From Acidilobaceae archaeon (GTDB taxonomy: Archaea > Thermoproteota > Thermoprotei_A > Sulfolobales > Acidilobaceae), in NCBI GenBank assembly GCA_027080775.1, contig JALWPV010000080.1:1-36607 (forward strand): a stretch of DNA of 36,607 nucleotides, written 5' to 3'. The position numbers and the translations under genes were made by a program. Below the pieces are notes generated by a model. It ran no database searches and was not told the origin of the DNA. It was given only the letters and a program-made list of their open reading frames with translations. Positions 1,919 through 32,374 of the stretch are shown piece by piece. Each line of letters begins with the position of its first letter. The first letter of the stretch is position 1.

Positions 1919-1939
1919 CCCCGCAGGGGGCGCCGGGGC

Positions 1940-2917: not shown

Positions 2918-2936
2918 GCCCCGTGGGGGGACCGCG

Positions 2937-2951
2937 CCCCCTTTAAGGGGG
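2937..2951. promoter_or_regulatory. palindromic TATA-like element
   Basis: CCCCC-TTTAA-GGGGG is an inverted repeat with 5-base arms around an AT core. It lies 20 bases after the glycosyltransferase stop and about 57 bases before the penicillin-acylase start. It may be a promoter with a long leader, or a terminator of the upstream operon. Confidence 0.4.
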
Positions 2952-3007
2952 AGCCCACCGTTATTCCAACCCGGTCCCCTACGGGATCCTCTAGGGGGAT
3001 TGATAGC

Positions 3008-5599: not shown

Positions 5600-5613
5600 G
5601 GGGGTGGTAGGCG

Positions 5614-6033
5614 GTGAGCGCCTCCAGGGTAGCGGCGGCCATCATAGGGGGCATAGCCATCTACGCAGTCCTACTCATCGCCCCCTACGGCTACTACCTC
5701 GCACCCATAATAGCCGGGATCTACATAGGAGCCCTCCTACCACACCGCGGCGCCGCGGCGGCATCGACAGGCCTGCTGGCGGGCATCATAGGCTGGGCGG
5801 CACTCGTAGCCTCGATAGGGGGCTTCAAGGCCCTAGGCCTAGCGGCAGGCATAGGAGGCACAGCCGCCCTTGGAGTAGCCCTAGTCTACCACCTAGGCAC
5901 ACCAGCCCTCGTAGCCTACCTCGCCGCGAGGCCCTGGACCCCCACGGAGGCAGCCCCAACGCCTGCCGCGGAGCCGGGAGCCCCCAGGGCACCCGAGGCC
6001 GGGCCCCAGGGGGAGGGCGGCCAAGGCCGATAG
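5614..6033 (+). CDS. small integral membrane protein, unknown function
   Basis: The protein has 139 residues. Four hydrophobic stretches (about 5-25, 28-45, 50-70 and 75-105) are rich in Ala, Gly and Ile. A hydrophilic tail of about 30 residues rich in Pro, Ala, Glu and Gly follows. The GTG start at 5614 has GGGGTGGT about seven bases upstream. It begins 14 bases after the acylase stop, so the two are probably co-transcribed. I do not recognise a family. Confidence 0.6.
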   Translation: MSASRVAAAIIGGIAIYAVLLIAPYGYYLAPIIAGIYIGALLPHRGAAAASTGLLAGIIGWAALVASIGGFKALGLAAGIGGTAALGVALVYHLGTPALVAYLAARPWTPTEAAPTPAAEPGAPRAPEAGPQGEGGQGR

Positions 6034-6094
6034 GGCCCCCGCCTCCCCTAGCGGGTTCTTCCAGGGTTCCCCCTCCCCCTAGTTTCTCTAGGCC

Positions 6095-7264
6095 TCAGCC
6101 CCGCCTCCCCTCTCTTCCCCGGGGCTTCCTGGGTGGGGGCCATACCACGAGGACCGCGGCGGCTAGCGCCGCTAGGAGTGAGGCCCACATGAGGGGATTG
6201 GGGTAGTGGCCCACGCAGGGGGCGGCGGCCGCTATGGCTAGGAGGGCGTAGGGGGATACGTTGTAGCGCCTGGCCGTGGGTATGCCTAGGATTACCGGGA
6301 GCATCATGGGGGCGTGGATGAATATGTGGAGGCCCGCGAACCCTATGGCGGTCGCGTGTATCAGGCACCCGAGCCTGACGGGCCAACCCGCGGCCCTGAG
6401 GGAGGCTAGGTAGAGTATGTAGGCTACTATTATCGCCACGTAGACGTGGCCCCAGAGGAAGTACTTGTGCGTCTTAACCACTATGGGCGGCTTCCTCTCC
6501 CTAGACACCTCCCCAGCTATCCTGGGGGCCTCGTGGATCCTCGCGGCGGGTATGTAGGCCACAAGCGAGAGCGCCGCTGCCACCAGGATCCACGGCGCGG
6601 GCCTGGCCTCGACGGCTAGGCCCAGGGAGGCGGCGGCCGCTAGGGCGAAGGGTAGCGGCAGGAGGGGCCAGAGGGGCTTGCGGCCGTAGGTTGAGGGGAA
6701 GGCGTGGAGGCTGACGGCGAATATCATTGGGACAGGGAAGGCGTAGAGGAGCCCGAGCCCCACGAGGACCGGGTTCCCCCGGAGGGTATGGGCCGCCACC
6801 CCGAGGTAGACCGCTGTGAGGGCGTTGCTGAATGCCGAGGCGGCCAGGGAGGCCCTCACGCTCCCCCGGGATAGGCTAGCCCCCACGAGGGCTGGGATGA
6901 CTTCGAGTGCCAGGGAGGCTATGAGCGTGGCACTCCAAGCCCCGAGGCCCAGGGCGACCCCTATGGGGGGCGCGAGCGCGGCGATTATCGGTGATGCCAC
7001 TAGGAAGGCGTAGGAGGCCCCCATTAGCGGGTGGCTCTTAGCCCTCATAGGTGAGACCACGTAGGACGACTCAACTGCGACGACAAACGCCACCAAGACC
7101 CCGCCAGCCATCATGAAAACGTGGTACTCAGCCGCCCTCACCGCGGCGGCCACAAGCCCTATAGCGAGGTAGGCTAGCGACGCCAGGATCCCCGCCATGC
7201 TAGCCCTGTGGACCCTCTTGATCCGCCTCGAATCCATGGTGCTGGGGCTCAAGGCTCCCCACAC
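6095..7264 (-). CDS. polytopic membrane protein with conserved-looking histidines
   Basis: A 389-residue protein with about 11-12 hydrophobic segments. Several histidines lie in or next to membrane segments: VSLHAFPSTYG, KYFLWGHVYVAI and, most strikingly, GFAGLHIFIHAPMMLPVIL. This spacing recalls heme- or copper-binding membrane proteins such as NnrS or heme-copper-oxidase-like families, but I cannot assign it to one. The GTG at 7264 is the longest start. An internal ATG ten codons in (MDSRRIKRV) is an alternative. It is divergent from the flavodiiron protein, and the shared intergenic region contains two inverted repeats, so a link to NO or O2 metabolism is a reasonable guess, not a demonstration. 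The C-terminal tail is basic (RKPRGREGRRG). Confidence 0.7.
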   Translation of the reverse strand: MWGALSPSTMDSRRIKRVHRASMAGILASLAYLAIGLVAAAVRAAEYHVFMMAGGVLVAFVVAVESSYVVSPMRAKSHPLMGASYAFLVASPIIAALAPPIGVALGLGAWSATLIASLALEVIPALVGASLSRGSVRASLAASAFSNALTAVYLGVAAHTLRGNPVLVGLGLLYAFPVPMIFAVSLHAFPSTYGRKPLWPLLPLPFALAAAASLGLAVEARPAPWILVAAALSLVAYIPAARIHEAPRIAGEVSRERKPPIVVKTHKYFLWGHVYVAIIVAYILYLASLRAAGWPVRLGCLIHATAIGFAGLHIFIHAPMMLPVILGIPTARRYNVSPYALLAIAAAAPCVGHYPNPLMWASLLAALAAAVLVVWPPPRKPRGREGRRG

Positions 7265-7276
7265 CGTATAAGGTGT
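7261..7276. promoter_or_regulatory. inverted repeat at start of the membrane-protein gene
   Basis: ACACC-(6)-GGTGT is a perfect 5-base inverted repeat overlapping the GTG start at 7264. It is a candidate operator for the minus-strand gene. Confidence 0.35.
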
Positions 7277-7288
7277 CGCTATGTCCTG

Positions 7289-7302
7289 TTAAGTACGCTT
7301 AA
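7289..7302 (-). promoter_or_regulatory. TATA region overlapped by an inverted repeat
   Basis: TTAAG-TACG-CTTAA is a 5-base inverted repeat. On the minus strand it overlaps TATTAAGC, which lies about 35 bases before the GTG at 7264, the right place for a TATA box. A repressor bound here would block that promoter. Confidence 0.4.
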
Positions 7303-7337
7303 TACATACCCCGCACTCCACGGCTAGGAGCTAAGGG

Positions 7338-7344
7338 TATATTC
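7338..7344 (+). promoter_or_regulatory. TATA box for flavodiiron protein gene
   Basis: TATATTC, preceded by a purine-rich BRE-like AAGGG, lies 33-39 bases upstream of the TTG at 7377. The leader would be about ten bases long. Confidence 0.55.
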
Positions 7345-7376
7345 TAGGGGACACTAGCTTCAGCCGGGTAAGTGGT

Positions 7377-8591
7377 TTGGGCGCCTATATCGTTGAGGAG
7401 ATTGAGAGGGACTTCTACATACTCAGAGTTAACGACAGGTACACCCGGTACTTCGAGGCCCTCTGGGAGATACCGGAGGGAATCACCTACAACGCCTACC
7501 TCCTCCGCACTCCAGAGGGTGCAGTGCTCTTCGATGGGTGGAAGAAGATATTCTCCGAGAAGCTGGTCGAGCTACTGGAGTCCCTCGTATCCAGGGACGA
7601 GCTGAGGTACATAGTCGTCAACCACATGGAGCCCGACCACAGCGGAAGCCTGGATGACGTGGCTAGGTGGGCCCCCCGGGCGAGGGTGCTCGGCCACCCT
7701 ATGGCGGCTAAGATGCTGGGCGCCTACCCCGAGGCCAAGAAGAGGTTCAAGCCCGTCAGGGACGGCGAGGAGCTACGGATAGGCGGCGAGGTCATCAGGT
7801 TCATCCACACGCCCTGGCTCCACTGGCCCGAGACCATGGTATCCTGGGTGGAGAGCAGGGGCATACTAGTCTCATGCGACGTCTTCGGGGGCTTCGGGGT
7901 GCCCTACGCCGTCTACGACGACGAGTGCGTCAGGCCCCTCGAGGCCCTGAGGGAGATGAAGAAGTACGTCGTGACAGTCATAGGCCACTACAGGCAGTGG
8001 ATAGCCAAGAACCTAGCGAAGCTCGAGTCCCTAGGTGTAAAGCCTAGGATCATAGCCCCGGCACACGGGCTCGCCTGGAGGTCCAGGCCCGAGAGGGTCG
8101 TCCAGATCTATAGGGAGCTAGGGGAGGCCAGGCCCATCAGGGGCAAGGTGCTGATAGTCTACGCCTCCATGTACGGCACGACTGAGTACCTCATAGCCAG
8201 CCTCACCCGGAGGCTCAGCAGGAGCGGCTACCACCCAGTGGTCTACGGCTTCACCGACACGACGAGGCCCCCCATCTCGGAGGTGCTAACCGACGCTATA
8301 GACTCGGAGGCAATAGTGCTGGCGGCCCCCACCTACGAGGCCGGGATCTTCCCCTTCCTCAGGTTCGTGGCCGAGGAGATATGCTGGAAGGCCTCCGACG
8401 GCAAGAAGGCTGTTGTGGTGTCAAGCTACGGGTGGGGGAGCGTCGCCGCCAAGCAGCTCAAGTCGATACTTGAGGGGTGCAACTACAGCGTCGTCAAGGT
8501 CGTGGAGTACAACGCCATAGGCCCCGAGGCGATAAGCCCCGGGGAGGCCGAGAGGATAGCCTCCGAGGTCCTCGAGGCACTCAGCGGCTAG
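7377..8591 (+). CDS. flavodiiron protein (A-type flavoprotein, FprA family)
   Basis: This cytoplasmic enzyme reduces O2 to water and/or NO to N2O with electrons from rubredoxin, ferredoxin or F420H2. The 404 residues are the standard two-domain length. The N-terminal metallo-beta-lactamase domain has a complete set of diiron ligands: His83, Glu85, Asp87 (in NHMEPDHSG), His149 (LHWPETM), Asp168 (SCDVFGGFG) and His230 (APAHG). The C-terminal flavodoxin domain starts near residue 256, with the FMN phosphate loop ASMYGTTEY. The TTG start is supported by the TATA box at 7338 and by the family N-terminus. It stands alone as a transcription unit, divergent from the His-rich membrane protein. O2/NO detoxification in an anaerobe or microaerophile is the likely role. 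Confidence 0.95.
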   Translation: MGAYIVEEIERDFYILRVNDRYTRYFEALWEIPEGITYNAYLLRTPEGAVLFDGWKKIFSEKLVELLESLVSRDELRYIVVNHMEPDHSGSLDDVARWAPRARVLGHPMAAKMLGAYPEAKKRFKPVRDGEELRIGGEVIRFIHTPWLHWPETMVSWVESRGILVSCDVFGGFGVPYAVYDDECVRPLEALREMKKYVVTVIGHYRQWIAKNLAKLESLGVKPRIIAPAHGLAWRSRPERVVQIYRELGEARPIRGKVLIVYASMYGTTEYLIASLTRRLSRSGYHPVVYGFTDTTRPPISEVLTDAIDSEAIVLAAPTYEAGIFPFLRFVAEEICWKASDGKKAVVVSSYGWGSVAAKQLKSILEGCNYSVVKVVEYNAIGPEAISPGEAERIASEVLEALSG

Positions 8592-8671
8592 CCCATCCTT
8601 CTCCCCGCGCAACCCTAACTTATTAGTGGGTACCAAGCATAATCTAGAGCGAGTGCCACCCCAGTGGGAGC

Positions 8672-10546
8672 GTGGTATCTTTGGAGTTCAAGGTAGCCCG
8701 GATAGACCTCCGGGAGTGGAAGGCCCGGGAGGAGAGGATACCCGAGAAGCTCCTCAGGAAGTACATTGGAGGCAGGGGCCTCGGAGCCTACCTAGCCCTC
8801 AGGGAGATACCCCCCAAGATAGACCCCCTCTCCCCCGAGAACAGGATCTACATACTCACCGGCCCCCTAACGGGGACCGGCGCGTTCCAGAGCGGCCGCT
8901 ACCACGTCGTGGGTAAGAGCCCCCTGACCGGGATCCTCGGGGACTCCAACAGCGGGGGTCAGTTCGGGCCCTGGCTCAGGTTCTCCGGGTACGACGGCCT
9001 CATAATAGAGGGTGCCAGCGACGAGCCCGTTTGGATCAGCATCGTGGACGGGGAGATACAGTTCCACCCCGCGAAGAGGCTCTGGGGCAAGGGCGTGGTC
9101 CACACCGAGATGGTTATCAGGAGCGAGATGAAGACGCCGAGCGAGTACATTGGCAGCGTGCTAGCGATAGGCCCGGCGGGGGAGAACCTCTCGAAGATAG
9201 CCGCGATAATGAACGACCGCTACCGCGCCGCCGGCAGGACGGGCCTCGCCGCCGTCCTGGGCGCCAAGAAGCTGAAGGCGATATTCGTTAAGGGCTCGAG
9301 GAAGATAGAGATAGCTGATAGGAGGAAGTTCGCCGAGGAGTCGAAGAAGCTCACGAAGAAGATAATGGAGCACCCAATAAGCGAGGCCCTGGGGAAGTTC
9401 GGCACCGCGGTCCTCGTCAACATAATAAACGCCCACGGCGCCTTCCCAACGAAGAACTGGACCCGCGGCACGTTCGAGAAGGCCTACGAGATAAGCGGCG
9501 AGTACCTCGCCGAGAAGTACCTCGTAACCAACAAGGGCTGCTGGGGCTGCGCCATACAGTGCGCCAGGGTCTCGAAGGTCGACACGGGCCCCTACAGGAC
9601 ACCCGTCTCCGAGGGGCCCGAGTACGAGACCATATGGGCCTTCGGAGCCAACACCCTCATAGGGAACCTAGAGGCCCTAATCAAGATAAACTACCTGGCC
9701 AACGACCTGGGCTTCGACACCATAAGCCTGGGCAACACGATGTCAACGCTCATGGAGCTCTACGAGAAGGCCAAGAAGGGGGAGCTACCCAAGGAGAAGG
9801 CAGAGGAGCTGATGAAGCTCCTAGGCGACATAGAGCCCACCTGGGGCAACGCCGAGGCCTTCATACAGGCCGTGTGGAGGACGGCCTACAGGCACGGCAT
9901 AGGCGACATAATGGCTGAGGGGGCGGCGAGGCTGGCCGAGTACTTCGGAAGCCCCGACTCGGCGATACACGTAAGGGGCCTCGAGCTGCCCGCCTACGAT
10001 CCCAGGGGCATAAACAGCATGGCCCTAGCCTACGCTACATCGAACAGGGGCGGCTGCCACCTCCGCTCCTACGCCGTCAGCTTCGACGTGCTGGGTGCGC
10101 CGAAGAAGTACGATCCACTGGAGATTAACATGGAGAAGGTGGAACTCGTGAAGTACCAGCAGGACTACTTCTCCGTCATAGACAGCCTCGTCGTGTGCAA
10201 GTTCAACACGTTCGCCACGGACCACACGGACTACGTGGGCGTGCTCCAGGCCGTGACTGGCTGGGAGGACCTCACAGCCGAAGAGCTACTAGAGGCAGGC
10301 GAGAGGATCTACAACCTCGAGAGGCTCTTCGCCGTCAGGGAGGGCCACGGCTACAGGGACTACCTACCCAAGAGGCTCCTGGAGGAGCCCCTACCAGACG
10401 GCCCCGCCAAGGGCAAGACAGCCAAGGAGGCCCTAGAAGCCTACCTACCACGCTACTACGAGCTACGCGGCTGGGAGGACGGCAAGCCCAAGCCCGAGAC
10501 GCTCAAGCGCCTAGGCCTAGACGAGTTCCTATACATAGTAGCCTAG
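8672..10546 (+). CDS. tungsten-dependent aldehyde:ferredoxin oxidoreductase
   Basis: This enzyme oxidises aldehydes, often derived from 2-keto acids of amino acid breakdown, to carboxylic acids with ferredoxin as acceptor. The 624-residue length is standard. The N-terminal domain shows GGRGLGAYLA and TGPLTGTGAFQSGRY, typical of pterin binding. The [4Fe-4S] cysteines are Cys290, Cys293 and Cys297 (GCWGCAIQCAR), and Cys509 is placed for the fourth ligand. GTG 8672 has GGGAG a few bases upstream. An AT-rich patch ACTTATTAG near 8617-8625 may be the TATA box. It lies 80 bases after the flavodiiron gene on the same strand. The aldehyde range (AOR, FOR or GAPOR type) cannot be fixed by eye. Confidence 0.93.
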   Translation: MVSLEFKVARIDLREWKAREERIPEKLLRKYIGGRGLGAYLALREIPPKIDPLSPENRIYILTGPLTGTGAFQSGRYHVVGKSPLTGILGDSNSGGQFGPWLRFSGYDGLIIEGASDEPVWISIVDGEIQFHPAKRLWGKGVVHTEMVIRSEMKTPSEYIGSVLAIGPAGENLSKIAAIMNDRYRAAGRTGLAAVLGAKKLKAIFVKGSRKIEIADRRKFAEESKKLTKKIMEHPISEALGKFGTAVLVNIINAHGAFPTKNWTRGTFEKAYEISGEYLAEKYLVTNKGCWGCAIQCARVSKVDTGPYRTPVSEGPEYETIWAFGANTLIGNLEALIKINYLANDLGFDTISLGNTMSTLMELYEKAKKGELPKEKAEELMKLLGDIEPTWGNAEAFIQAVWRTAYRHGIGDIMAEGAARLAEYFGSPDSAIHVRGLELPAYDPRGINSMALAYATSNRGGCHLRSYAVSFDVLGAPKKYDPLEINMEKVELVKYQQDYFSVIDSLVVCKFNTFATDHTDYVGVLQAVTGWEDLTAEELLEAGERIYNLERLFAVREGHGYRDYLPKRLLEEPLPDGPAKGKTAKEALEAYLPRYYELRGWEDGKPKPETLKRLGLDEFLYIVA

Positions 10547-10612
10547 CCCCCCACCCCTCTCTTTCTCGGCCCTAGCCCCCTCATCCTACTCATTTACTAC
10601 TGGATACCCCGG

Positions 10613-10631
10613 CCCCTCCCCGGGGGAGGGG
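10613..10631. terminator. GC-rich hairpin between AOR and GGT genes
   Basis: CCCCTCCCC-G-GGGGAGGGG is a perfect 9-base inverted repeat. It lies 67 bases after the AOR stop, behind a pyrimidine-rich run (10547-10569), and 30 bases before the GGT start. It could be a terminator or a structured leader. Confidence 0.4.
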
Positions 10632-10660
10632 CGCTGGGAGCCCTAGTCCCTAGGGGCCTC

Positions 10661-12193
10661 GTGAGGGAGGCGCACGGCTTCTCGGGGGCGGTTGCTAGCG
10701 AGTGGATGCCTGCCTCGCTAGTGGGCCTCGGGATCCTCCGGGAGGGCGGTAACGCCGCGGACGCCGCGGTGGCCGTTAGCCTCGCATCGGCTGTGGGGAT
10801 CCCCCACTTGGGCGGGGTGGGTGGGGACTACTTCGCCCTGGCCCGCCTCCCCGGTGGGGGCTACTTCTTCGTGAACGGCTCCGGCCACGCCCCGCGGAGG
10901 CTAACCAGGGGCCTCCTGGAGGGGATGGGCTACTCCAGGATGCCCGAGTGGGGGCCCCTCAGCGCCACGGTGCCCGGGATGATAGAGGGCCTCCACGCGC
11001 TCTGGCGCAGGCTGGGCTCCATGGAGTGGCGCAGGCTCGTGGAGCCAGCCGCTAGGATGGCCCGGGAGGGCTTCCCGGCCCCGAGGAGCCTAGTGGAGTA
11101 CGTGAGGGCCTCGTGGGGGAGGCTCTCTAGGGACCCCGGGAGCAGGGAGGCCTACGCCCCCCTGCTCGAGGCGGGGCCGGGTGACAGGGTGAGGTTCCCG
11201 GGGCTGGCGAGGCTCCTGGAGCTGGTGGCCGAGGATCCTAGGGCCTTCTATGAGGGGGAGCCCGCTGAGGCCCTCGAGTCATACCTGGGGCAGCGCGGCG
11301 GGGTCATGGAGGCGGGGGACCTCAGAGGCTATAGTGCCTGGGTGGGCGAGCCCGTTAGGAGCGAGTACCGGGGCTGGAGGCTCGCTGAGATGCCCCCAAA
11401 CACGCAGGGCCTCACTACGCTGCACATACTCAAGGTCCTCGAGCAGTGGAGCCTCCCCAGGGACCCCCTCGCGAGGGCCCCGCTCGTCGTCAGGGCCTCG
11501 CCGCCATGCTACGAGCTTAGGGACCGCGAGCTGGGGGACCCGAGGTACATGAGGGTTAGCGTTGACTACCTGCTCTCGGAGGAGGTTGTGGGGGAGCTGA
11601 GGTCCAAGGCCTCGAGCCACACGGGGGCCCCCCGCTGCGGCCCCGGCCCCGGGGGTGACACCACCTTCTACGCCGTAGCCGACGGGGAGGGCCTCCTAGT
11701 CGCTGGGATACAGAGCCTCTTCTACCCCTTCGGCTCGCACGTCACCGAGCCTAGGTTCCAGGTCACACTAAACTCGAGGGCCCAGGGCTTCACTCTGGAG
11801 CCGGGGCACCCCAACTCCCTTGAGCCGGGTAAGAGGCCCCTCCACACCCTCTCGGCGCTGGTAATGGAGGGCCCCGGGGACAGGCTCGTGGCGATCGGGA
11901 CCAGCGGGGGCCACTATAGGCCGCAGCAGCACGCCCTCCTAGCCACTTCCATAGTGGACGCTGGCATGAGCCCGGGGGAGGCGGTGGCGGCCCCTAGGAT
12001 CCTCTGGGCCCCGGGGACCTGTAGTCTAGTGGTGGATGAGGGCCTCGAGGCGAGGGCCGAGGAGCTACTGCCGGGCCTGAGGGCGAGGGCGGGGCGCACG
12101 GGCGTCGCCGCGATAGTGGAGCTGGACGCCTCCAGGGGGGTCTACACGGCGGCGACTGACCACCGGGGCGAGGGGTACCCGGTCACATTCTAG
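10661..12193 (+). CDS. gamma-glutamyltransferase family protein
   Basis: This N-terminal-nucleophile hydrolase is made as a precursor and self-cleaves; it hydrolyses gamma-glutamyl amides or related acyl compounds. It has 510 residues. The large-subunit part has the family pattern GNAADAAVAVSLASAVGIPHLGGVGGD. The small subunit would begin at Thr334 in GGDTTFYAVAD. The usual next residue His is Phe here. Downstream are YPFGSHVTEPRFQVTLNSR and GTSGGHYRPQQHALL, the latter in the position of the family's GSPGG oxyanion motif. No clear signal peptide is visible, so it is probably cytoplasmic. The GTG start is at 10661, the longest one without running into the hairpin. It converges with the DMT gene, overlapping it by 11 bases. 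The substrate may not be glutathione, since archaea of this kind generally lack it. Confidence 0.88.
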   Translation: MREAHGFSGAVASEWMPASLVGLGILREGGNAADAAVAVSLASAVGIPHLGGVGGDYFALARLPGGGYFFVNGSGHAPRRLTRGLLEGMGYSRMPEWGPLSATVPGMIEGLHALWRRLGSMEWRRLVEPAARMAREGFPAPRSLVEYVRASWGRLSRDPGSREAYAPLLEAGPGDRVRFPGLARLLELVAEDPRAFYEGEPAEALESYLGQRGGVMEAGDLRGYSAWVGEPVRSEYRGWRLAEMPPNTQGLTTLHILKVLEQWSLPRDPLARAPLVVRASPPCYELRDRELGDPRYMRVSVDYLLSEEVVGELRSKASSHTGAPRCGPGPGGDTTFYAVADGEGLLVAGIQSLFYPFGSHVTEPRFQVTLNSRAQGFTLEPGHPNSLEPGKRPLHTLSALVMEGPGDRLVAIGTSGGHYRPQQHALLATSIVDAGMSPGEAVAAPRILWAPGTCSLVVDEGLEARAEELLPGLRARAGRTGVAAIVELDASRGVYTAATDHRGEGYPVTF

Positions 12194-13070
12194 GCTCCTC
12201 GCCGGCCAGCACGGCCCCTATCCCGGCCAGGGTGACAGTCATCCAGAGGGCCTCGCCGGGTGTCAGGGGCTCGCCCAGGATTAGCCACGCCAGTAGCGAG
12301 GCCCCCAGGGGCTCGCCAAGCACCGGCACTGTGGCCGCTAGCAGGGAGAGCCTCGGGAGGACGTAGTTTATGATAGTGTGCCCCCCAAGCATGGGTAGGA
12401 GCGCGAGGAGCACCAGGTACACGTAGGACCTCCCCGGGTAGCCGGTGAGCCCGTAGCCCAGGGCCCGCGTCGCTATCACGGAGGCTAGGGCGGCGGCCCC
12501 GTAGACTATCCCCGTGTACTCGAGGGTCGAGTGCCTCCCCCTCATGGCCTTCCCGATACTGAAGTAGAGGGCCACGCACAGCATGCCAGCGAGTGAGAGG
12601 GCCGCCCCCAGGAGGGGCCTAGCCCCCGGCGGCGCGGGGGCGCTCCTAGCCTCGAGGGAGAGGCCCGCGACACCCGCCAGAGCCACGGCTGCCCCTAAGA
12701 GCTGGGCGGGCGCATACCTCTCACCCAGCAGGAAGCGCCCGGCAACGGCGAGCACAGCCGGGTAGCTGTCGACGATGGTCACGCTCGAGGCGACGCTCAT
12801 GTAGGAGAGGCTCATCATCCAGAGGCCGAAGTGGAACGCCAGAGCCACCCCGGAGACCACCATCAGGACTGTGTCCCTAGGGCTCGGCCTCGGCGGGCCG
12901 CGGCGCGCCTCGAGGACGGCGTAGGCGGCGAGTGTTATAGCGGAGGATAGTATGAGCCTCCAAGACGCAGCCACGAAGCCGGGGACGCCGCTGAGCCTCA
13001 CCAGTATCGAGGCCGTCGATATGTCGGCGACCGCCAGCGCGAGAAGTGCTATGTAGCGTGGCCGCGGCAC
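12183..13070 (-). CDS. EamA/DMT-superfamily permease
   Basis: An integral membrane protein of 295 residues with ten predicted hydrophobic helices in two repeated halves (about 1-140 and 150-290), the layout of EamA/RhaT-type drug/metabolite exporters. GEPLGASLLAWLILGEPLTPGEALW near the C-terminus is the classic EamA end motif, and LLGERYAPAQLLGAAVALAG is its counterpart in the first half. The start is GTG at 13070. The 3' end overlaps the convergent GGT gene. The substrate is unknown; amino acid or metabolite export is typical. Confidence 0.88.
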   Translation of the reverse strand: MPRPRYIALLALAVADISTASILVRLSGVPGFVAASWRLILSSAITLAAYAVLEARRGPPRPSPRDTVLMVVSGVALAFHFGLWMMSLSYMSVASSVTIVDSYPAVLAVAGRFLLGERYAPAQLLGAAVALAGVAGLSLEARSAPAPPGARPLLGAALSLAGMLCVALYFSIGKAMRGRHSTLEYTGIVYGAAALASVIATRALGYGLTGYPGRSYVYLVLLALLPMLGGHTIINYVLPRLSLLAATVPVLGEPLGASLLAWLILGEPLTPGEALWMTVTLAGIGAVLAGEEPRM

Positions 13071-13130
13071 CCAGCCTACCCCGCCCTGGGAGCGCCCCTG
13101 CCGTGGGCTGGGGGAGCGGGGTGGGGCCTG

Positions 13131-14099
13131 TTAGGCTCTGAGCCAGCAGGCCACGTAGTGGCCGCTCTCGACCTCCTCTAGGGGCGGCTCGTGCTTGCGG
13201 CACACGTCCTTCGCGTAGGGGCACCTGGGGTGGAACCTGCAGCCCGGGGGCGGGTTTATGGGGCTCGGCGGCTCTCCTGGCAGGCGTATCTTCTTCCTCC
13301 TCCTCGTCTCCGTGGGGTCTGGGAGTGGTATGGCCGCTAGGAGGGCCTGGGTGTAGGGGTGTAGCGGCTTCTCGAAGACCTCCTCGGCGGGGCCGTACTC
13401 GACTATCTTGCCGAGGTACATGACTGCTATGTAGTCGCTCATGTACCTGACAACGCCGAGGTCGTGGCTTATGAAGAGGTATGTGAGGCCGTACTCGCGC
13501 TGGAGGCTCTTCAGCATCTCGAGTATCTGGGCCTGGACGCTCACGTCGAGCGCGCTCGTGGGCTCGTCTAGCACTATGAACTCCGGCCTGAGGGCGAGCA
13601 CCCTGGCTATCGCTATCCTCTGCCTCTGCCCCCCGCTGAACTCGTGGGGGTACCTGTAGAGGTGGGTCTCGTTGAGGCCGACCTTGTATAGGAGGTCTAC
13701 CACGAACTTCTCGGGGTCGCCGACCTTTATGCCGTGGTACTTGAGCGGCTCGGTTATGATCTGGAAAACCGTCATCCTAGGATTGAGGCTCGAGTAGGGG
13801 TCCTGGAAGACTATCTGCGCCCTCCTCCTGAACTCGAGGAGCTCGCGGCCCCTGAGCTTGTAGATGTTCTTACCGTTATAGTACACCTCGCCCTCCGTGG
13901 GCTCCAGGAGCCTCACCAGGAGCCTCCCGAGGGTGCTCTTCCCGCACCCGCTCTCCCCGACCAGCCCCAGCGTCTTGCCCCTCTCAATCCTGAGGTTGAC
14001 CCCATCGACAGCCCTCACGTAGCCTATGGTCCTGAAGACCCCCTTGACGGGGAAGTACTTCTTGAGGTTCCTAGCCTCGACCAGGACCTCGCCAGCCAC
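13131..14099 (-). CDS. oligopeptide/dipeptide ABC transporter ATP-binding protein (OppF/DppF type)
   Basis: The second cytoplasmic ATPase of the peptide importer. Walker A is GESGCGKST, the signature is FSGGQRQR and Walker B is [12 protein letters not shown]. The C-terminal oligo/HPY extension has [17 protein letters not shown] plus a final Cys (VACWLRA), a four-Cys set that in relatives binds an Fe-S cluster. GTG 14099 was chosen because residues then begin [16 protein letters not shown], as in homologues, and GGTAGGGGGTG precedes it. The longer open frame up to 14210 lies inside the upstream ATPase gene. The start is 15 bases after the upstream gene's stop, consistent with an operon. Confidence 0.93.
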
Positions 14100-14113
14100 C
14101 GCCGGGGCACCCC

Positions 14114-15106
14114 CTACCTGGCGTAGAGCCAGCACGCCACCCTGTGGTGCTCGTCGACCCAGATCTCGGGCGGCTTCTCGCGCTTGCAGACATCCATGGT
14201 GTGGGGGCACCTTGGGTGGAACCTGCAGCCGGGGGGTGGCTCTATTAGGTTCGGCACGGTCCCGGGTATGGCCTCGAGCTTTATGGTCCTCCTACCCGGG
14301 TGGGGCACGGCCCTTAGTAGGGCCCTCGTGTAGGGGTGTAGCGGCTTCTCGAAGAGGTCGTAGACGGGTGCCTCCTCTACTATCACGCCAGCGTACATCA
14401 CGGCTACCCTGTCGCATACCTCGGCGACGAGGCCCATGTTGTGGGTTATCAGTAGTATGGTGAGGCCCTCCCTCTTCTTGAGGTCCATCAGCAGGTCCAT
14501 GAGCTGGGCCTGCACGGTGGCGTCGAGGGCCGTGGTGGGCTCATCCGCTATCAGGAGCCTGGGCCTGTTGCTTAGGGCTATGCCTATCACGCCCCTCTGC
14601 CTCATGCCCCCGCTTAGCTCGTGGGGGTAGCTCCTGGCCCTCCTCTCGGGGTCGGGCATGAGGACTCTCCTGAGTACCTCGACGGCCCTCCTCATGCCCT
14701 CCTTCAGCTTGGCCACGGTGCCGTGCTCGTACATGGTCTCAGCCACCTGGTAGCCTATGGTGTAGAGGGGGTCCAGGGCGGCTGTTGGGTCCTGGAAGAC
14801 GTAGGCTATCTCGGCCCCCCTGATCTTGTTGAGTTCCTCCTCGCTGAGGCTCATTATGTCGACTCGCTCACCGTCCCTGTAGTAGTAGATCTCGCCCTCC
14901 TCGATCTTACCTGGGGGCCTTATGAGCCTGGTGAGCGCCCTGGCAGTGACACTCTTCCCGCAGCCGGTCTCGCCTACGAGGCAGTAGGTCTCGCCCTTGC
15001 ATATCCTGAATGATACGCCATCTATGGCCTTCACTACCCCGGCGTAGGTGTAGAAGTTCACCTTGAGGTTCTTGACCTCTATTATGGGGGTGCACATCTC
15101 ACTCAC
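14114..15106 (-). CDS. oligopeptide/dipeptide ABC transporter ATP-binding protein (OppD/DppD type)
   Basis: The first ATPase of the importer, 330 residues. Walker A is GETGCGKSV, with Val in place of the usual Thr/Ser at the end. The signature is LSGGMRQR and Walker B is [12 protein letters not shown]. The C-terminal [17 protein letters not shown] and HRVACWL provide four cysteines as in its partner. The start GTG at 15106 overlaps the TGA of the upstream permease by four bases (GTGA), a sign of translational coupling. Confidence 0.94.
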
Positions 15107-27058: not shown

Positions 27059-27309
27059 ATGGCTGATGCCTCGGCAATAAACGCCATCGAGGAGTTAATC
27101 CTGAGGAGGAGACGGCTCATAGAAGAGATAAAAAAATCGAGAGAAAATATGGCATTAAAAGCGGGGAGTTCTACGAGAAATGGAGTAAGGGGTTACTACC
27201 TGAACCCCTCGATCCCGAGATGCATGGAGACTTCATGCTATGGTATGGGCTCATAGAGGAGCTTAACAGCATTGAAAGAGAGCTAAGGAGGAAACTCAAG
27301 ATGACGTGA
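27059..27309 (+). pseudogene. TumE-partner antitoxin, split by a -1 frameshift at an A7 run
   Basis: The frame from ATG 27059 encodes a helical start (ASAINAIEELILRRRRLIEE) and then turns into unlikely sequence after the A7 run at 27130-27136. The -1 frame takes over with convincing sequence, KYGIKSGEFYEKW then HGDFMLWYGLIEELNSIER, ending at TGA 27307. Adding one A restores an 82-83-residue all-helical protein that looks like the small antitoxin usually encoded before TumE (DUF6516) toxins. The run ATA AAA AAA forms an in-frame A-AAA-AAA slippery heptamer, so programmed -1 frameshifting, a sequencing error and a true mutation are all possible. The toxin gene follows. Confidence 0.7.
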
Positions 27310-27347
27310 GGTTCTACCAGGAGAGCGGGCAATGCAAACAAGACTAG

Positions 27348-27716
27348 TTGATACGGATAGCATATGTTACGGATAAACTACGGCGATTAGTGTTCCAAAA
27401 CATAATCCTCGCAACCTACAGGCCCGGCCCCACGGGCATGGATGGTTACTATAAGCTTCAAGCAGTGAAGAATGACTTCAAAATATTCGTGTCGGAACTC
27501 ATGATTAGAGGCTCAATAGCGAAGTATTCCTATACTCTCTTGCACAAGGAGGAAATCATACTCAGATACGATAACGCCCCGCATCACCCGCGTATAGAAA
27601 CGTTCCCGCATCATAAACACTGGAGAGACGAGGTAATGCCAATCTACGATCGTTCAATAGATTCCTTCCTGGAGGAGGCGGCATCCCTAATGGAGGGGCC
27701 AGGCCGTGGTAGATAG
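27348..27716 (+). CDS. TumE-like (DUF6516) toxin-family protein
   Basis: A 122-residue protein whose second half carries the strongly conserved DUF6516/TumE segment RYDNAPHHPRIETFPHHKH, preceded by SIAKYSYTLLHKEEIIL. The family is the toxin of type II-like pairs; it is proposed to be an RNase, but the mechanism is not settled. TTG 27348 gives the open frame. A better start signal, ATG 27332 with AGGAGAG six bases upstream, is in another frame that closes after 14 codons, so the 5' end may itself carry an indel. The gene is 38 bases after the frameshifted antitoxin. Base composition is clearly lower in GC than the chromosomal genes around. Confidence 0.75.
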   Translation: MIRIAYVTDKLRRLVFQNIILATYRPGPTGMDGYYKLQAVKNDFKIFVSELMIRGSIAKYSYTLLHKEEIILRYDNAPHHPRIETFPHHKHWRDEVMPIYDRSIDSFLEEAASLMEGPGRGR

Positions 27717-28701: not shown

Positions 28702-28795
28702 GCCGCCGTAGCTCAGCGGTAGACCCCTGCGCGGGGCCGACAGCGCCGGCCTTGTAAGCCGGTGGTCGCGGGTTCGAATCCCGCCGGCGGCTCCA
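28702..28795 (+). tRNA. tRNA-Thr(UGU) with a 19-base insertion in the D-arm
   Basis: The acceptor stem is GCCGCCG (28702-28708) paired with CGGCGGC (28785-28791), discriminator T28792 and encoded CCA (28793-28795). The anticodon stem CCGGC/GCCGG encloses loop CTTGTAA, anticodon TGT. The T-arm is GCGGG-TTCGAAT-CCCGC. The D-stem GCTC (28711-28714) can only pair with GAGC if 19 bases are removed between 28722 and 28743, so the gene appears to carry an intron at an unusual D-arm site. The 3' half is the apparent integration target of the elements downstream. Confidence 0.85.
28724..28742 (+). other. candidate tRNA intron in the D-stem
   Basis: Removing 28724-28742 (or equally 28723-28741, because both ends have A) joins GGTAGA to GCG and restores the D-stem GCTC/GAGC. 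The segment itself contains a small hairpin, CCCC-TGCGC-GGGG. I could not draw a canonical bulge-helix-bulge around the junctions by eye, so the splice mechanism is unproven. Confidence 0.6.
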
Positions 28796-28809
28796 CAAAC
28801 ACCTCCTAA
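28751..28809. repeat. att-like repeat, copy A (inside the intact tRNA-Thr)
   Basis: The 59 bases from the anticodon loop through the tRNA 3' end and 14 bases of flank recur at 29910-29968 with a single mismatch (A28756 versus G29915). This fits the left attachment site of an element integrated in the tRNA gene. Confidence 0.85.
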
Positions 28810-28856
28810 CCATCACAGGCCTAGTTGTAATTGCAAGCGCTACATCCCTGCGGTGC

Positions 28857-28863
28857 TTTTAAG
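28857..28863 (+). promoter_or_regulatory. TATA box of the DUF104/PIN module
   Basis: TTTTAAGG lies about 38-44 bases before the TTG at 28901. The start also has AGGTGG five bases upstream. Confidence 0.5.
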
Positions 28864-28900
28864 GCTTAGGACTGTGTTATAGAAGAGTTAGGTGGGCGGA

Positions 28901-29107
28901 TTGGCTAGGGTTGTTCGTGTGCGTTATGAGGGGGGTGTGTTAAAGCCTCTGGAGGAGCTAGACCTTAACGAGGGAGAGGAGTTGACGGTTGTTATTAAGG
29001 GCAGGAGCTTCTACGAGGTGGCCAGGGAGCTCCAGGTTGAAGCGAGGGAGGATGTGGATAAACTAGTTTCGGAGGTCCGCGGGCGTGGCAAGAAGCTCTA
29101 CAACTAG
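28901..29107 (+). CDS. DUF104-family antitoxin
   Basis: A 68-residue protein matching the AF2212/PG0164-like (DUF104) antitoxin family: an N-terminal beta part VVRVRYEGGVLKPLEELDL, then NEGEELTVVI, followed by a toxin-wrapping tail with helix FYEVARELQVEAREDVDKL. TTG 28901 is preferred over GTG 28892 because it has AGGTGG at the right distance and gives the family's usual MARVVRVRY-type N-terminus. It overlaps the PIN-domain gene by 23 bases, the usual arrangement for such pairs. Confidence 0.85.
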   Translation: MARVVRVRYEGGVLKPLEELDLNEGEELTVVIKGRSFYEVARELQVEAREDVDKLVSEVRGRGKKLYN

Positions 29108-29591
29108 CGTTGTGCTAGACACTACTGTCATCGTTAAAAGCATCCTAAAGCCTCCAAGGCATCTTCCTCCCCACGTATATAGGCGGGAGGTCGAGACACA
29201 CAGGAAAATCCATGCTATCCTGGAGATTCTTGAGAGCCGAGGCTATACAGTCTACTTTCCCCGGGCGGGTATCGTTGAAGTGGCAGCTGTTCTGAAACGG
29301 GGTGGACTTAGCAGACAAGCCATAATCGGGCTGGTAAAGAGTATGGAGGAGACGTTTATCATCGTAGGCGAGGACATAGTCTATGGTAAAGCCTTCGAGA
29401 TAGCTCTTGAAAGGGCTCCCTCAGGCTTTGACACCTACTTCATAGCATTAGCTGCAGCGACAAGCTCAATGCTGATAACCGATGACAAACCCATGGCTAG
29501 CCATGCAAAGGCCCTAGGTATAGAAACGATTCTCGTGCGAGAGACTAGTCTAGAACAAATACGAAGGAACCTAGCAAAACAACCAAAGTAA
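29085..29591 (+). CDS. PIN-domain toxin (VapC family)
   Basis: A 168-residue PIN-domain ribonuclease of a toxin-antitoxin pair. Predicted metal-binding acids are Asp12 (VVLDTTVIVKS), Glu65 (AGIVEVAAVL), Asp116 (GFDTYFIALAAA) and Asp133/Asp134 (LITDDKPM). GTG 29085 has GGAGGT eight bases upstream. The gene appears intact. Together with its antitoxin it is the only coding content of the 1.16-kb interval between tRNA repeats A and B. Confidence 0.87.
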   Translation: MARSSTTSVVLDTTVIVKSILKPPRHLPPHVYRREVETHRKIHAILEILESRGYTVYFPRAGIVEVAAVLKRGGLSRQAIIGLVKSMEETFIIVGEDIVYGKAFEIALERAPSGFDTYFIALAAATSSMLITDDKPMASHAKALGIETILVRETSLEQIRRNLAKQPK

Positions 29592-29909
29592 AACCCGTAG
29601 CACGTCCACGGCTCCTCGAAGCCTTCACGATAATGTCCGGGATAATATTCTGGTTGCCCTGAACACATAGTAACGTTAATAGCTAGTCGTACAACTAGGT
29701 TACTGCCCGCCTCTGGCGCTGCTCTGGCATACGTGTTCAGGAGGAGCCACGAGAGGAGATTTCCCTCGGCCCCAAGCTCTCGCAACAAGACCTTACTCGC
29801 AGGGCAGCGTTTCACTGGGCAGGCATGATCATTTGCCTTGATAGCTGGCTGTGCGTAAACGTTTCAGATTCTCATCGATTACTGAGACATCTGTATCTGT
29901 ATCTCTGGT
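29592..29909. other. region without a recognisable gene, up to repeat B
   Basis: No frame here looks like a protein. A minus-strand frame reaching into it is a shadow of the PIN gene, and another ends in translated tRNA sequence. The composition is AT-richer than the chromosome. It may contain element termini, but I see no repeats or RNA structure that I can defend. Confidence 0.5.
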
Positions 29910-29968
29910 CTTGTGAGCCGGTGGTCGCGGGTTCGAATCCCGCCGGCGGCTCCACAAACACCTCCTAA
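29910..29968. repeat. att-like repeat, copy B (tRNA-Thr 3' half plus flank)
   Basis: 58 of 59 bases match 28751-28809, including the anticodon loop, T-arm, acceptor 3' strand, CCA and 14 flanking bases. The 5' half of the tRNA is absent, so it is not a working tRNA. It is best explained as the right attachment site. Confidence 0.85.
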
Positions 29969-30019
29969 TCTTCGAGATTATATTACTATCCTCATTTAGA
30001 ACACTTTTACACCCAATCT

Positions 30020-30364
30020 TCACGTTTTCAGTTCTAACTCGAACTCATAGCCTAGTTCGGAGGCTGCCTCGGCTATCACTCTGAAGTCTTTATCTCTTGT
30101 TATCAGCCTCTCCCCTCTGTTAAGTGCTATGGAAGCTATTAGTAGGTCGGCGAATGCTTGAGGACTTCCTTTCTTTAATAGTTGCAGTTGGAGTTTATGA
30201 GCGGTGAGATAATCTTGCTCCACGGGGAATATAACGTTGCCTTGGAAGCGTTTGTAGTACACTATACGAGGGTATTCCACGAGGGTCACGACGCTTATAT
30301 CCTCGATTATGTGCTTCCTCTCGCGGACCAGGTCTATCACAATACTGGTATCTAGTATAGTCAA
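30020..30364 (-). CDS. VapC-type PIN-domain toxin
   Basis: A 114-residue PIN-domain ribonuclease, compact like most VapC toxins. Predicted active-site acids are Asp5 (MTILDTSIVIDL), Glu30 (SVVTLVEYPR), Asp73 (AFADLLIASIA) and Asp91/Asp93 (LITRDKDF). The TTG start overlaps the antitoxin's TGA by four bases (TTGA), showing translational coupling. The gene appears intact. It lies just after repeat B, in the second interval of the island. Confidence 0.9.
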   Translation of the reverse strand: MTILDTSIVIDLVRERKHIIEDISVVTLVEYPRIVYYKRFQGNVIFPVEQDYLTAHKLQLQLLKKGSPQAFADLLIASIALNRGERLITRDKDFRVIAEAASELGYEFELELKT

Positions 30365-30609
30365 GATAGTCGCTCCCTCTCGCGTCTACGCAACTCTTCT
30401 ACATCGTATTCTCCCGCCTCAATGTCCTCTAGTAGCTGCTCTCTCTCCACGCCGAGCCTAGCCCTAATTTCTTCGATACTAATCCGACCCCAGAGCCTCG
30501 CCGTCACCTCCTCCACAACTCTCCGGGCCTCCTCCTCCGAGACCCACGGGGGCAGTCTAACCGTGATAGTCTTCGGCTTACTACCCACCGCCACCACCAC
30601 TCCTACCAA
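30361..30609 (-). CDS. VapB-type antitoxin
   Basis: An antitoxin of about 82 residues directly upstream of the VapC gene. The N-terminal segment KPKTITVRLPPWVSEEEA looks like a ribbon-helix-helix DNA-binding domain. The C-terminal half is helical and highly charged (EQLLEDIEAGEYDVEELRRR), as expected for a toxin-binding tail. The start is uncertain: TTG 30609 gives the longest frame, while GGTAGGAG suggests that one of the GTG codons a few triplets later is used. Confidence 0.8.
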   Translation of the reverse strand: MVGVVVAVGSKPKTITVRLPPWVSEEEARRVVEEVTARLWGRISIEEIRARLGVEREQLLEDIEAGEYDVEELRRRERERLS

Positions 30610-30675
30610 ACTTCAGCTAATGAATTCCCGCTCAAACCTTAAAGGTACTCGTGAGCCTTAAGATTCGAACCTCTG

Positions 30676-30905
30676 TTATTGATGCGAAACAGTCTTCATA
30701 TCCTCCTCAAGCTCCCTGGAGGTCGTAGTTTAGCGGTGCCCTTCTGGAACGCAGCTCGTAGGGAAACTCCCTGAGACTTAACCCAGCCAGCTCAGCGGCC
30801 TTCCCCAGCGAAACCCTCCCCTCACGGTAGAGTTCAAGTGCCACTAGTAGCCCTAGCTCCTCCTCGACGCTACGAGGCCTCGCGGGCTCAGAGTCTAATT
30901 AGCAT
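30676..30905 (-). pseudogene. UPF0175 antitoxin remnant with frameshift(s)
   Basis: The minus strand reads VALELYREGRVSLGKAAEL, then AGLSLREF and PLNYDLQ, the unmistakable second half of UPF0175 small proteins. At the GGG of 30713-30715 the frame is lost; skipping one base continues as ELEEDMKTVSHQ and stops at 30676. The N-terminal part of the family is missing, and the only nearby ATG (30903-30905) is also out of frame by one base. So the gene is truncated and interrupted. UPF0175 proteins are usually antitoxin-like partners of PIN or DUF3368 toxins. Confidence 0.65.
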
Positions 30906-30946
30906 GCTAGCCTATTATGTTCTAAGAGCATGAAGGGCGGCCCTCC

Positions 30947-31142
30947 CTAGACCCAGCCCTTGCTGCCGTACTTCTCTATAAGCTCCCTTGTTCTTATGGA
31001 GCTGGTGGGCTAGCTCCTCCCCCTCCACTGGCTCGTGGACAACCACCTCTACGCCCCCAATAATGTATCTGCAGGGCTCCACTACATCGGGAACCTCATC
31101 CAGGCTATGGTAGACCTTAACCCTAGCCTTAACCGCGCCCAA
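30947..31142 (-). pseudogene. small protein downstream of HicB, interrupted by a frameshift
   Basis: From TTG 31142, which has GGAGGT five bases before it, the frame reads KARVKVYHSLDEVPDVVEP then VEVVVHEPVEGEELAHQLHK. Near 30986-30996 one extra A shifts it: removing one base continues as TRELIEKYGSKGWV and stops at 30947. The uncorrected frame instead runs on to 30915 with unlikely sequence. It overlaps the 3' end of the HicB-like gene by 14 bases. I do not recognise the family; it is not a standard HicA. It could be a toxin partner or an unrelated small protein. Confidence 0.5.
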
Positions 31143-31350
31143 CTTCAACCTCCAGCACGCCCACAATGCCCCGATCGAGCCGCTCCAGCTTCTCCAGAGC
31201 CTCCGGGACCTCTTCTAGGTATAGCTCCAGAGCCTCTCGGGGATTCTTAATTGCCTCCTCAACCGTTTTGCCTTGGCTGGTGACCCCTGTAGTAACCTCT
31301 CTAGCCACATACATATCCTCCTCGAGCCAAACAACGACTCTTACACGCAT
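31129..31350 (-). CDS. HicB-like antitoxin
   Basis: A 73-residue HicB-type protein: RVRVVVWLEEDMYVAREV then GVTSQGKTVEEAIKNPREAL and ELYLEEVPE, the classic HicB partial RNase-H-like fold. ATG 31350 is the true start. The frame stays open to 31497 only because it reads through a tRNA T-arm fragment. A TATA-like CTTTAA lies about 22 bases upstream on the minus strand, so the mRNA is probably leaderless. The start sits in a perfect 12-base palindrome, CATCCCGGGATG, a possible autoregulatory site. No HicA is visible. Confidence 0.8.
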   Translation of the reverse strand: MRVRVVVWLEEDMYVAREVTTGVTSQGKTVEEAIKNPREALELYLEEVPEALEKLERLDRGIVGVLEVEVGRG

Positions 31351-31467
31351 CCCGGGATGCCCCTTAAAGTTACGATAAAAGTTACAATACCTGCTTCCAA
31401 GATAAAATCTTGACAGCCCGTATTTTTCTATTATTAATAGTTTGGCTGAAATAATGTTTTGTAGGGT

Positions 31468-31491
31468 GGTGGTCGCGGGTTCGAATCCCGC
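31468..31491. repeat. diverged third copy of the tRNA 3' segment (copy C)
   Basis: GGTGGTCGCGGGTTCGAATC plus CCGC (24 bases) is identical to the variable loop and T-arm of the tRNA-Thr. To the left, TTTTGTAGGGTG aligns without gaps to CCTTGTAAGCCG with several mismatches. To the right the acceptor sequence differs (TAGCATCTC). It is a degenerate att-like remnant, or the 3' piece of another tRNA. Confidence 0.7.
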
Positions 31492-31675: not shown

Positions 31676-31957
31676 GTGAGTGGACCTGATTTGCCCCTTA
31701 AGTTGAGGGTTAGGAGGAAGGGCTACATAATACTGCCGAAGGCCATTCGGGAGGCGGTAGGCATAGATGAGGGTGATGAGGTTATAGTCGAGCTTGGGGA
31801 TGGAATCATACTCAAGCCCGCGAAGAGGAGGGTTAACGAGGAGGAGATTAGAAGATCCCTAAGGATGCATCTGGAGAGGCTTAGGGAGATACAGGGCAGA
31901 AGGGAGCCTAGGCCCGGCGAGCTCGCCGGGGCGTATCTCGAGGAGGAGTTCGAGTGA
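31676..31957 (+). CDS. AbrB/MazE-type (SpoVT-AbrB) antitoxin
   Basis: A 93-residue swapped-hairpin AbrB protein: LKLRVRRKGYIILPKAIRE then VGIDEGDEVIVELGDGIILK, followed by a charged helical tail (about 50-93) that would bind a PIN toxin. GTG 31676 is leaderless by its TATA box. Its TGA overlaps the start of the next gene as GTGA, the usual VapBC coupling. The antitoxin reads intact while its toxin is broken, so it is either an orphan antitoxin or on its way to decay. Confidence 0.85.
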   Translation: MSGPDLPLKLRVRRKGYIILPKAIREAVGIDEGDEVIVELGDGIILKPAKRRVNEEEIRRSLRMHLERLREIQGRREPRPGELAGAYLEEEFE

Positions 31958-32374
31958 TAAAGGCCTTCATAGATTCCCCCGCTCCTCGTTCACCTCAACG
32001 CGATGTCGGCCCCAAAGCTAGGATGCTCTACAAGGGCTTCTACATAAGAGCCCTAGCCGAGTATAAGCTCTGCACAGACGTACTCGTACTCGGCGAAGTC
32101 GTCTACGTCTCCAGGGAGAAGTAATCCCATATGACGTTTCAGTGGAATTTTATAGAATCAGTAGTCCTCCCCTACGTATCCATTATCAATCTAGTATCAA
32201 TCTAGGCGAGGACGAGTACAGACTAGCAGCGGAAATCCTTGTGGAGTATAGCCTCAAAACCTCAGGCTCCCTCCACTTGGGGGCCATGCTTAGTAGTGGC
32301 ATCAACTGGTAATTAGTGAGTATAGGGGGTTTGATGGGGTAGTGGCGGTAAAAGATTATGGATGTAAACCCTAA
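31954..32374 (+). pseudogene. VapC PIN-domain toxin, inactivated by several frameshifts
   Basis: Starting at GTG 31954 the frame reads VIKAFIDSPAPR, then PKARMLYKGFYIRALAEYK and DVLVLGEVVYVSREK, and hits TAA at 32122. Recognisable PIN-domain sequence goes on in shifted frames: IPYDVSVEF, then IESVVLPYVSIINL, then GEDEYRLAAEILVEYSL and LHLGAMLSSGIN, then FDGVVAVKDYG, ending at 32374. One shift is explained exactly by an 11-bp tandem duplication. The first metal-binding motif is also altered, since FIDS is followed by PAPRS rather than SVLV. The N-terminal Asp and the Glu of LGEVVYVS remain, but no functional toxin can be made. Confidence 0.8.
32184..32205 (+). repeat. 11-bp tandem duplication within the dead VapC gene
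   Basis: TATCAATCTAG occurs twice in a row. Deleting one copy joins YVSIINL directly to GEDEYRL in one frame, as in intact relatives, so the duplication is a recent inactivating event. Confidence 0.85.

Follow-up and report, generated by a model that had tools for sequence, protein, structure and literature searches.

The window analyzed here, a stretch of 36,607 nucleotides corresponding to contig C80 of an Acidilobaceae archaeon genome (G000; 1.78 Mb, draft in 85 contigs, 99.9% complete), carries an intact tRNA-Thr(TGT) gene that is followed by a second copy of its own 3' half (Table 1). The tRNA identity was obtained with the intron option of ARAGORN, and the tRNA-Pro identity returned without this option was dropped. 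The non-canonical intron of about 20 nt (about 28724-28742) is located in the 5' half, outside the duplicated segment, and was confirmed by intronless orthologues. Just upstream of the tRNA lies a TatD-like gene with 73% protein identity to that of the nearest named relative of G000, an Acidilobaceae archaeon MAG. Before this gene, positions 27059-27716 hold a toxin gene of the TumE type (PF20126), preceded by a short ORF that resembles an antitoxin. This region has 68 to 69% DNA identity to the TumE cassettes described below, and no tRNA fragment adjoins it.

A tRNA-Thr 3' half duplicated around a toxin-antitoxin pair

A sequence-only reading of this DNA had reported that positions 28751-28809 and 29910-29968 are identical at 58 of 59 bases, and direct alignment bears this out, the sole mismatch being A/G at 28756. 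In a BLAST search against the whole 1.78-Mb genome, the repeat of the tRNA 3' half scored 97% identity over 62 bases (E = 6e-24); the two copies are spaced 1,159 bp apart. The match indeed continues 14 bases past the tRNA; rather than duplicated chromosome, these bases probably represent a left terminus that two consecutive units have in common. This terminus, CAAACACCTCCTAA, recurs at the left boundary of the 13-kb unit of another genome (G014).

The same reading had described the interval as a DUF104/PIN pair plus some 320 bases free of genes; judged by Pfam and ORFs, the gene-free part measures 318 bp, and the only ORFs between the repeats are those of the toxin-antitoxin (TA) pair, with no integrase encoded in 28796-29906. 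The antitoxin and toxin genes are adjacent, overlap, and belong to known families, which is the gene layout of type II TA systems. The G+C content is 50.5% in the cassette region versus 64% in window bases 1 to 27000. The right arm of cassette 1 comprises GTTTCA (29809-29814), GTTTCAG (29861-29867), TGAGAC (29883-29888), and a 24-nt motif (29883-29906). TGAGAC is a decayed form of the TGAAAC found elsewhere, and this slight decay of the window's arm counts against the explanation that we favor.

Beyond the displaced tRNA half lies a second, composite and partly decayed unit, which contains VapBC together with remnants of a UPF0175-type antitoxin, an ORF (30915-31166), and HicB. Its VapB-like ORF has no Pfam match. 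A homologue of the probable third-unit remnant further downstream follows a tRNA fragment in contig C12 of G020 and in G014.

Table 1. Features of the tRNA-Thr locus in the window
Feature	Position	Strand	Basis
tRNA-Thr(TGT), intact; target, now attL	28702..28795	+	ARAGORN with introns; Rfam, 60 bits; intronless orthologues
Left att core, reaching from the anticodon stem-loop to 14 nt beyond the tRNA	28748..28809	+	
Cassette 1, entire unit between tRNA 3' halves	28796..29906	+	Full-length, same-ended homologues in G031, G020, G115
DUF104/AF2212-like antitoxin gene	28892..29107	+	PF01954, E = 1.2e-14
PIN-domain toxin gene	29085..29591	+	PF01850, E = 3.3e-6
Right arm, putative integrase arm-binding region	29809..29906	+	Common to units of unrelated cargo and integrase-bearing elements
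Displaced tRNA-Thr 3' half, both attR for cassette 1 and the left end of unit 2	29907..29968	+	
Unit 2, composite, partly decayed	29955..31454	+	Individual pieces share 80-91% identity with cassettes in G056, G017, G033, G004, G115, G020
PIN toxin (VapC-like) of unit 2	30020..30364	-	PF01850, E = 3.9e-7
Putative VapB-like antitoxin of unit 2	30361..30609	-	Position; ORF and same partner kept in G056, G017, G033
HicB-like antitoxin without intact HicA	31129..31365	-	PF24113/HicB-like; 79-85% DNA identity to HicAB cassettes
Decayed third fragment of the tRNA 3' half, bordering unit 2 on the right	31455..31491	+	91% of 33 bases, E = 7e-7
Probable third-unit remnant: MazE/AbrB-type antitoxin and truncated toxin	31676..32124	+	PF04014

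Recurrence of the arrangement at tRNA-Thr

The tRNA 3' half was used as the query against 60 relatives, with later searches added, and tRNA-Thr(TGT) followed by a downstream second 3' half was found in 15 genomes besides the window (G031, G020, G004, G017, G014, G011, G024, G010, G033, G016, G027, G056, G048, G115, and G164); this and the other genome counts given here are threshold-dependent lower bounds, most of the genomes being draft MAGs. In nearly all of the 15, the second copy begins at the same tRNA position. The units are flanked by about 45 to 62 bp of near-identical tRNA sequence, and the interval is 0.66 to 1.9 kb long in most genomes, 13 kb in G014, and 32 kb in G164. Most short units hold one TA pair each, whose family varies: DUF104/PIN (G031, G020, G115), VapBC (G056, G033, G017), HicAB (G020, G011, G048, G024, G010), TumE with a partner (G004, G017, G020), UPF0175-like/PIN (G017, G115), or a DUF4258/DUF2283-like pair (G016), where the names VapB, UPF0175, and DUF2283 were read from the ORFs and the other families assigned by Pfam. 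An exception is G027, with an ABC transporter in the interval and a poor tRNA fragment. Tandem arrays of two or three units occur in G017, G115, and G020, and in a genus mate, G002, a tRNA fragment is located on a contig without the tRNA.

The window unit is thereby one member of a recurrent family of cassettes and arrays. Chance or an assembly artefact, for which the draft state of a MAG in 85 contigs might speak, is effectively refuted by this recurrence: the same arrangement appears in many independent assemblies, some of them with long contigs and with host-specific tRNA variants, and the repeat itself has the very low E value given above.

The 13-kb unit of G014 (L072, G014:C8, about 1365-14615) lies between tRNA-Thr and the same 24-nt motif with a tRNA fragment. 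It encodes a restriction-modification system of type I together with a CRISPR module of type III (Cas10, Cas5/Cas11, and Cas7, matching III-A/III-F best); an ORF for an integrase was not seen.

Empty sites, which the sequence-only reading had proposed to look for, were not found within the genus, where the mate G001 carries these TA genes at this tRNA as well, so that one of the refuting conditions named by that reading partly applies inside the genus. Outside the genus, many tRNA-Thr genes have no downstream fragment. The site is best described as hypervariable rather than simply empty, because two species of one genus (G015 and G023; L075, L076) are 84% identical upstream and as far as 6 bp beyond tRNA-Thr, after which nothing is shared over the next 10 kb. 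In these genomes, variable DNA sets in sharply at the end of tRNA-Thr. A large integrase-bearing element with unrelated borders, the alternative that had been named as incompatible with a minimal integrated element, does not account for the arrangement in the window.

A common right end

Units of unrelated cargo share a right end of the form GTTTCAG-N14-CTGAAAC, 24 nt before the tRNA core. For eight units, the mean column identity of the right end is 0.75 over 54 nt, compared with 0.44 for random windows (maximum, 0.50 of 2,000). TGAAAC begins exactly 24 nt from the core in all eight, which differ in cargo, and the spacer inside the GTTTCA(G)-TGAAAC repeat is more variable (0.59). Scans of 214 genomes of the order retrieved 13 occurrences of the 24-nt motif, all beside a tRNA-Thr fragment (0 for the reversed control), and nine places with the exact inverted repeat in six genomes, all adjoining a tRNA or tRNA fragment (1 for the reversed control); several of these nine sit at the start of an integrase. 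Exact-pattern scans of IMG/VR returned no instance of the 24-nt motif or of the tRNA half. Within the DUF104/PIN family, the right arm is conserved no better than the neighboring noncoding DNA, a finding that counts against our preferred explanation.

We considered whether the 24-nt motif is a promoter of the TA genes and rejected this, because its position is tied to the tRNA core rather than to the TA genes, which can have either orientation. Given a TATA-like stretch, it is possible that the motif acts as a promoter facing the core.

Integrase-bearing elements with the same repeat

A 17-kb element at tRNA-Arg(CCG) in G128 encodes an intact integrase of about 435 amino acids and has the inverted repeat at both ends. 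The left repeat overlaps the integrase start codon, and in the right one TGAAAC is placed 24 nt from the core, beside a 94% identical tRNA 3' half. In G059 and G178, integrase elements located at tRNA-Arg have a left end of the same layout. These integrases match PF16795, have KxxR and a C-terminal tyrosine, and are encoded by unsplit genes (the G178 row, a wrong ORF, was left out of the alignment); KxxR is the signature of SSV-type integrases (PMC8371274). At tRNA-Arg(CCG) of G059 (L263, G059:C47), the integrase element is followed by a DUF104/PIN unit and then by a TumE-like unit that includes a 399-aa ORF outside any Pfam family, after which further tRNA-Arg fragments continue to the contig end. 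Since TA pairs are thus lodged between tRNA-Arg fragments, the logic of the arrays is not confined to tRNA-Thr.

Pieces of such integrases are also found in arrays at tRNA-Thr. In G002, a HicB-containing unit and fragment precede a 72-aa C-terminal integrase piece, 77% identical to full-length relatives; in G033, a cassette and fragment precede a broken N-terminal piece; in G178, a left arm and a broken integrase N terminus lie directly behind tRNA-Thr; and in G001, a decayed left arm in that position is followed by a DUF104 gene. The only intact integrase found at tRNA-Thr(TGT), of 432 amino acids, belongs to a 32-kb element with a perfect 48-bp repeat in G164 (L259/L260, G164:C14), and its differing arm repeats (GAGTTCCC/GGGAACTC) count against the preferred explanation. 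Several large uncharacterized genes are also present in this element. The left inverted repeat of the integrase-bearing elements is absent from the cassettes, a further point against that explanation.

Neither phage and plasmid records nor IMG/VR contained a match to the integrase with GTTTCAG arms, and for this reason no free element was found. Likewise, G000 has no detectable relative of this cognate integrase, so the cassette may be stranded there. No PF00589 recombinase, not even XerA, was detected in G000 despite its rated completeness, while 18 of 20 genomes searched have one. Two SSV-type (PF16795) integrase genes of G000 (G000:C28:175874-176356 and 210720-211136), near weak tRNA-like fragments, suggest other integrated elements in this genome. 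An integrase of G000 itself was dropped as the mover, PF00589 being absent and the two PF16795 genes lacking the arm and lying by other tRNA-like fragments. A small ORF near the right end of two different units (L221, G115:C73, 8811-9062; L081, in reading orientation, 4219-4425) has no Pfam match, shows CxxC pairs in the G115 copy, and is possibly a directionality factor.

Horizontal transfer of units without an integrase

In G000, G031, G020, and G115, the DUF104/PIN unit shows collinearity that starts immediately behind the tRNA and extends to the right arm. Its DNA, noncoding parts included, is 87 to 92% identical across these four genera of two families. Among 214 genomes, only these four have the unit at full length, each time at tRNA-Thr. 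RpoB DNA identity is 69.6% between G000 and G020 and 65.5% between G000 and G115, with G031 not included as its RpoB was not found. Other cargo behaves similarly, with 90% identity over 1,169 bp for the UPF0175/PIN units of G004 and G115 and 91% over 633 bp for VapBC of G000 and G056, where RpoB DNA is near 60% in both cases. Cassette types with fixed left ends change their place between arrays, so that a type that leads one array can occupy the second or third position elsewhere. Because the DUF104/PIN unit is so much more similar (87 to 92%) than RpoB (65 to 70%) and is always located at tRNA-Thr, these comparisons demonstrate, at the level of DNA identity, that the integrase-less form itself was transferred between lineages.

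This bears on the view that the units are stationary relics of larger elements that decayed in place, the TA pair resisting loss, with no later movement. Such decay fits the pieces of integrase genes and the decayed left arms that lie within or next to the arrays of G001, G002, G024, G033, and G178, as well as the decayed fragments and the missing cognate integrase in the window's genome. Yet several genera from two families have identical deletion end points, at the identities given above and always at tRNA-Thr. Since independent decay would not give identical ends, nor vertical descent such identity, we consider decay in place improbable as the only process.

Homologous recombination through the tRNA 3' halves (about 50 bp) of incoming DNA would need no integrase at all. 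Near-identical tRNA sequence does flank each unit, and short homologies are able to recombine in some Sulfolobales. However, this process leaves unexplained why a conserved arm with a fixed 24-nt spacing is shared with integrase-bearing elements. It also fails to explain the tRNA fragment of G004, in which an Arg(CCT)-type anticodon loop is joined to the 3' part of tRNA-Thr, a hybrid that leads us to place strand exchange in the anticodon loop. Recombination of this kind is quite improbable in our estimate.

A cassette probably moved by a borrowed integrase

The att anatomy, the shared arm, the fixed unit ends, the arrays, and the integrase remnants inside them are direct observations. We propose, with a probability of roughly 0.7, that the interval is a non-autonomous, site-specific, CIME-like cassette, derived by internal deletion and moved by the tyrosine integrase of a co-resident element, in trans or in cis. 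The suggestion of the sequence-only reading that this is a minimal integrated unit or deleted remnant is upheld in the form of an integrase-less, att-bounded deletion derivative that has, at its end, the recognition repeat of integrases whose genes lie elsewhere. Its claim of an integrase supplied in trans fits by inference only, and carriage in cis, in a tandem composite with an integrase-bearing element, may apply instead. As the mover, a PF16795 integrase with GTTTCAG arms is most likely, judging from the shared repeat.

In the mechanism that we envisage, the arm at the right end of the cassette, GTTTCA followed by GTTTCAG-N14-CTGAAAC and then 24 nt, beside the copy of the tRNA-Thr 3' half, would be bound by the tyrosine integrase (PF16795, R..KxxR..Y) of a co-resident element. 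The enzyme would exchange strands in the anticodon loop, so that the unit inserts into the tRNA gene and completes it with the 3' half that it brings along, the resident 3' half being displaced to the far end of the insert. Repeated insertion at the same site would generate arrays. The units themselves probably originated from integrase-bearing elements by internal deletions that kept the right arm and one TA pair, or in one case a defense island. TA modules have a well-known stabilizing role, and here the pair plausibly makes loss of the unit costly.

A sub-case of this proposal is that cassettes move only in cis, within a composite excised by an integrase element of the same array, as in CIME accretion. 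The cassettes followed by an integrase remnant in G002 and G033 and the TA units behind the integrase element at tRNA-Arg of G059 are in line with it. In contrast, the varied orders and combinations of the same cassettes suggest individual movement, although serial composites could also produce them, and we regard the restriction to cis as rather unlikely.

Returning to the borrowed integrase in its general form, tiny TA units of these heat-loving archaea apparently spread among distant species by using the enzyme of larger elements, whose recognition sequence they have retained. Conceivably, a single tRNA gene might even serve as an integron-like platform, at which helper integrases capture, stack, and exchange TA and defense cassettes across genera and families, a notion that we advance tentatively and at somewhat less than even odds. 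Either way, the cassettes offer a concrete and testable vehicle for the spread of TA pairs in archaea. A mobile unit of about 1 kb would be possible without an enzyme of its own, with borders and recognition arm readable from the sequence, and it would account for the tRNA-fragment debris seen beside TA genes. The acting integrases are predicted to be those of PF16795 with GTTTCAG arms. As the cargo reaches a 13-kb island of restriction-modification and type III CRISPR, the route is linked to defense islands as well.

Comparison with known systems

Archaeal elements that target tRNA genes are known with SSV-, pTN3-, pT26-2-, and pNOB8-like integrases (PMC8371274). As in these elements, the tRNA 3' half serves as the att site, the anticodon-loop region is implicated in recombination, KxxR is present in the related integrases, and the 3' half is duplicated at the far end; the window unit differs in having no integrase of its own. 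The related integrase genes are whole and adjoin the tRNA (type II layout), yet have the SSV-like signature. A term search of the text of this review found no mention of toxins. Thaumarchaeal cryptic integrated elements of 2.6 to 98 kb are likewise small archaeal elements of unknown origin found via att repeats, but the maps shown for them carry integrases, whereas our units lack integrase genes and for the most part are smaller than that (PMC6563490).

No description of arrays of TA-only, tRNA-bounded cassettes in archaea was found in the open-access literature, which is weak evidence of novelty given that subscription papers were outside the scope of the search. Chromosomal integrons with TA cassettes resemble the arrays in their modularity, fixed platform, promiscuous cassettes, and TA cargo. 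The window unit is nevertheless no integron: IntI and attC are lacking, with no PF00589 protein in G000, the borders of the unit are tRNA halves that act as att, and the integrase would be one encoded elsewhere.

The closest parallel is the CIME, an element minus its integration genes that retains attL and attR and, in bacteria, accretes in tandem at a resident att site (PMC5704250). Similarly, the window unit is devoid of integration genes and has kept attL and attR (97% over 62 bases, plus the right arm). Sister arrays contain integrase remnants and decayed left arms, and no transfer genes were seen. What sets the present cassettes apart from the CIME is that they are archaeal, about 1 kb in size with one TA pair, distributed as integrase-less units across genera and families, and equipped with a conserved integrase arm common to autonomous elements.
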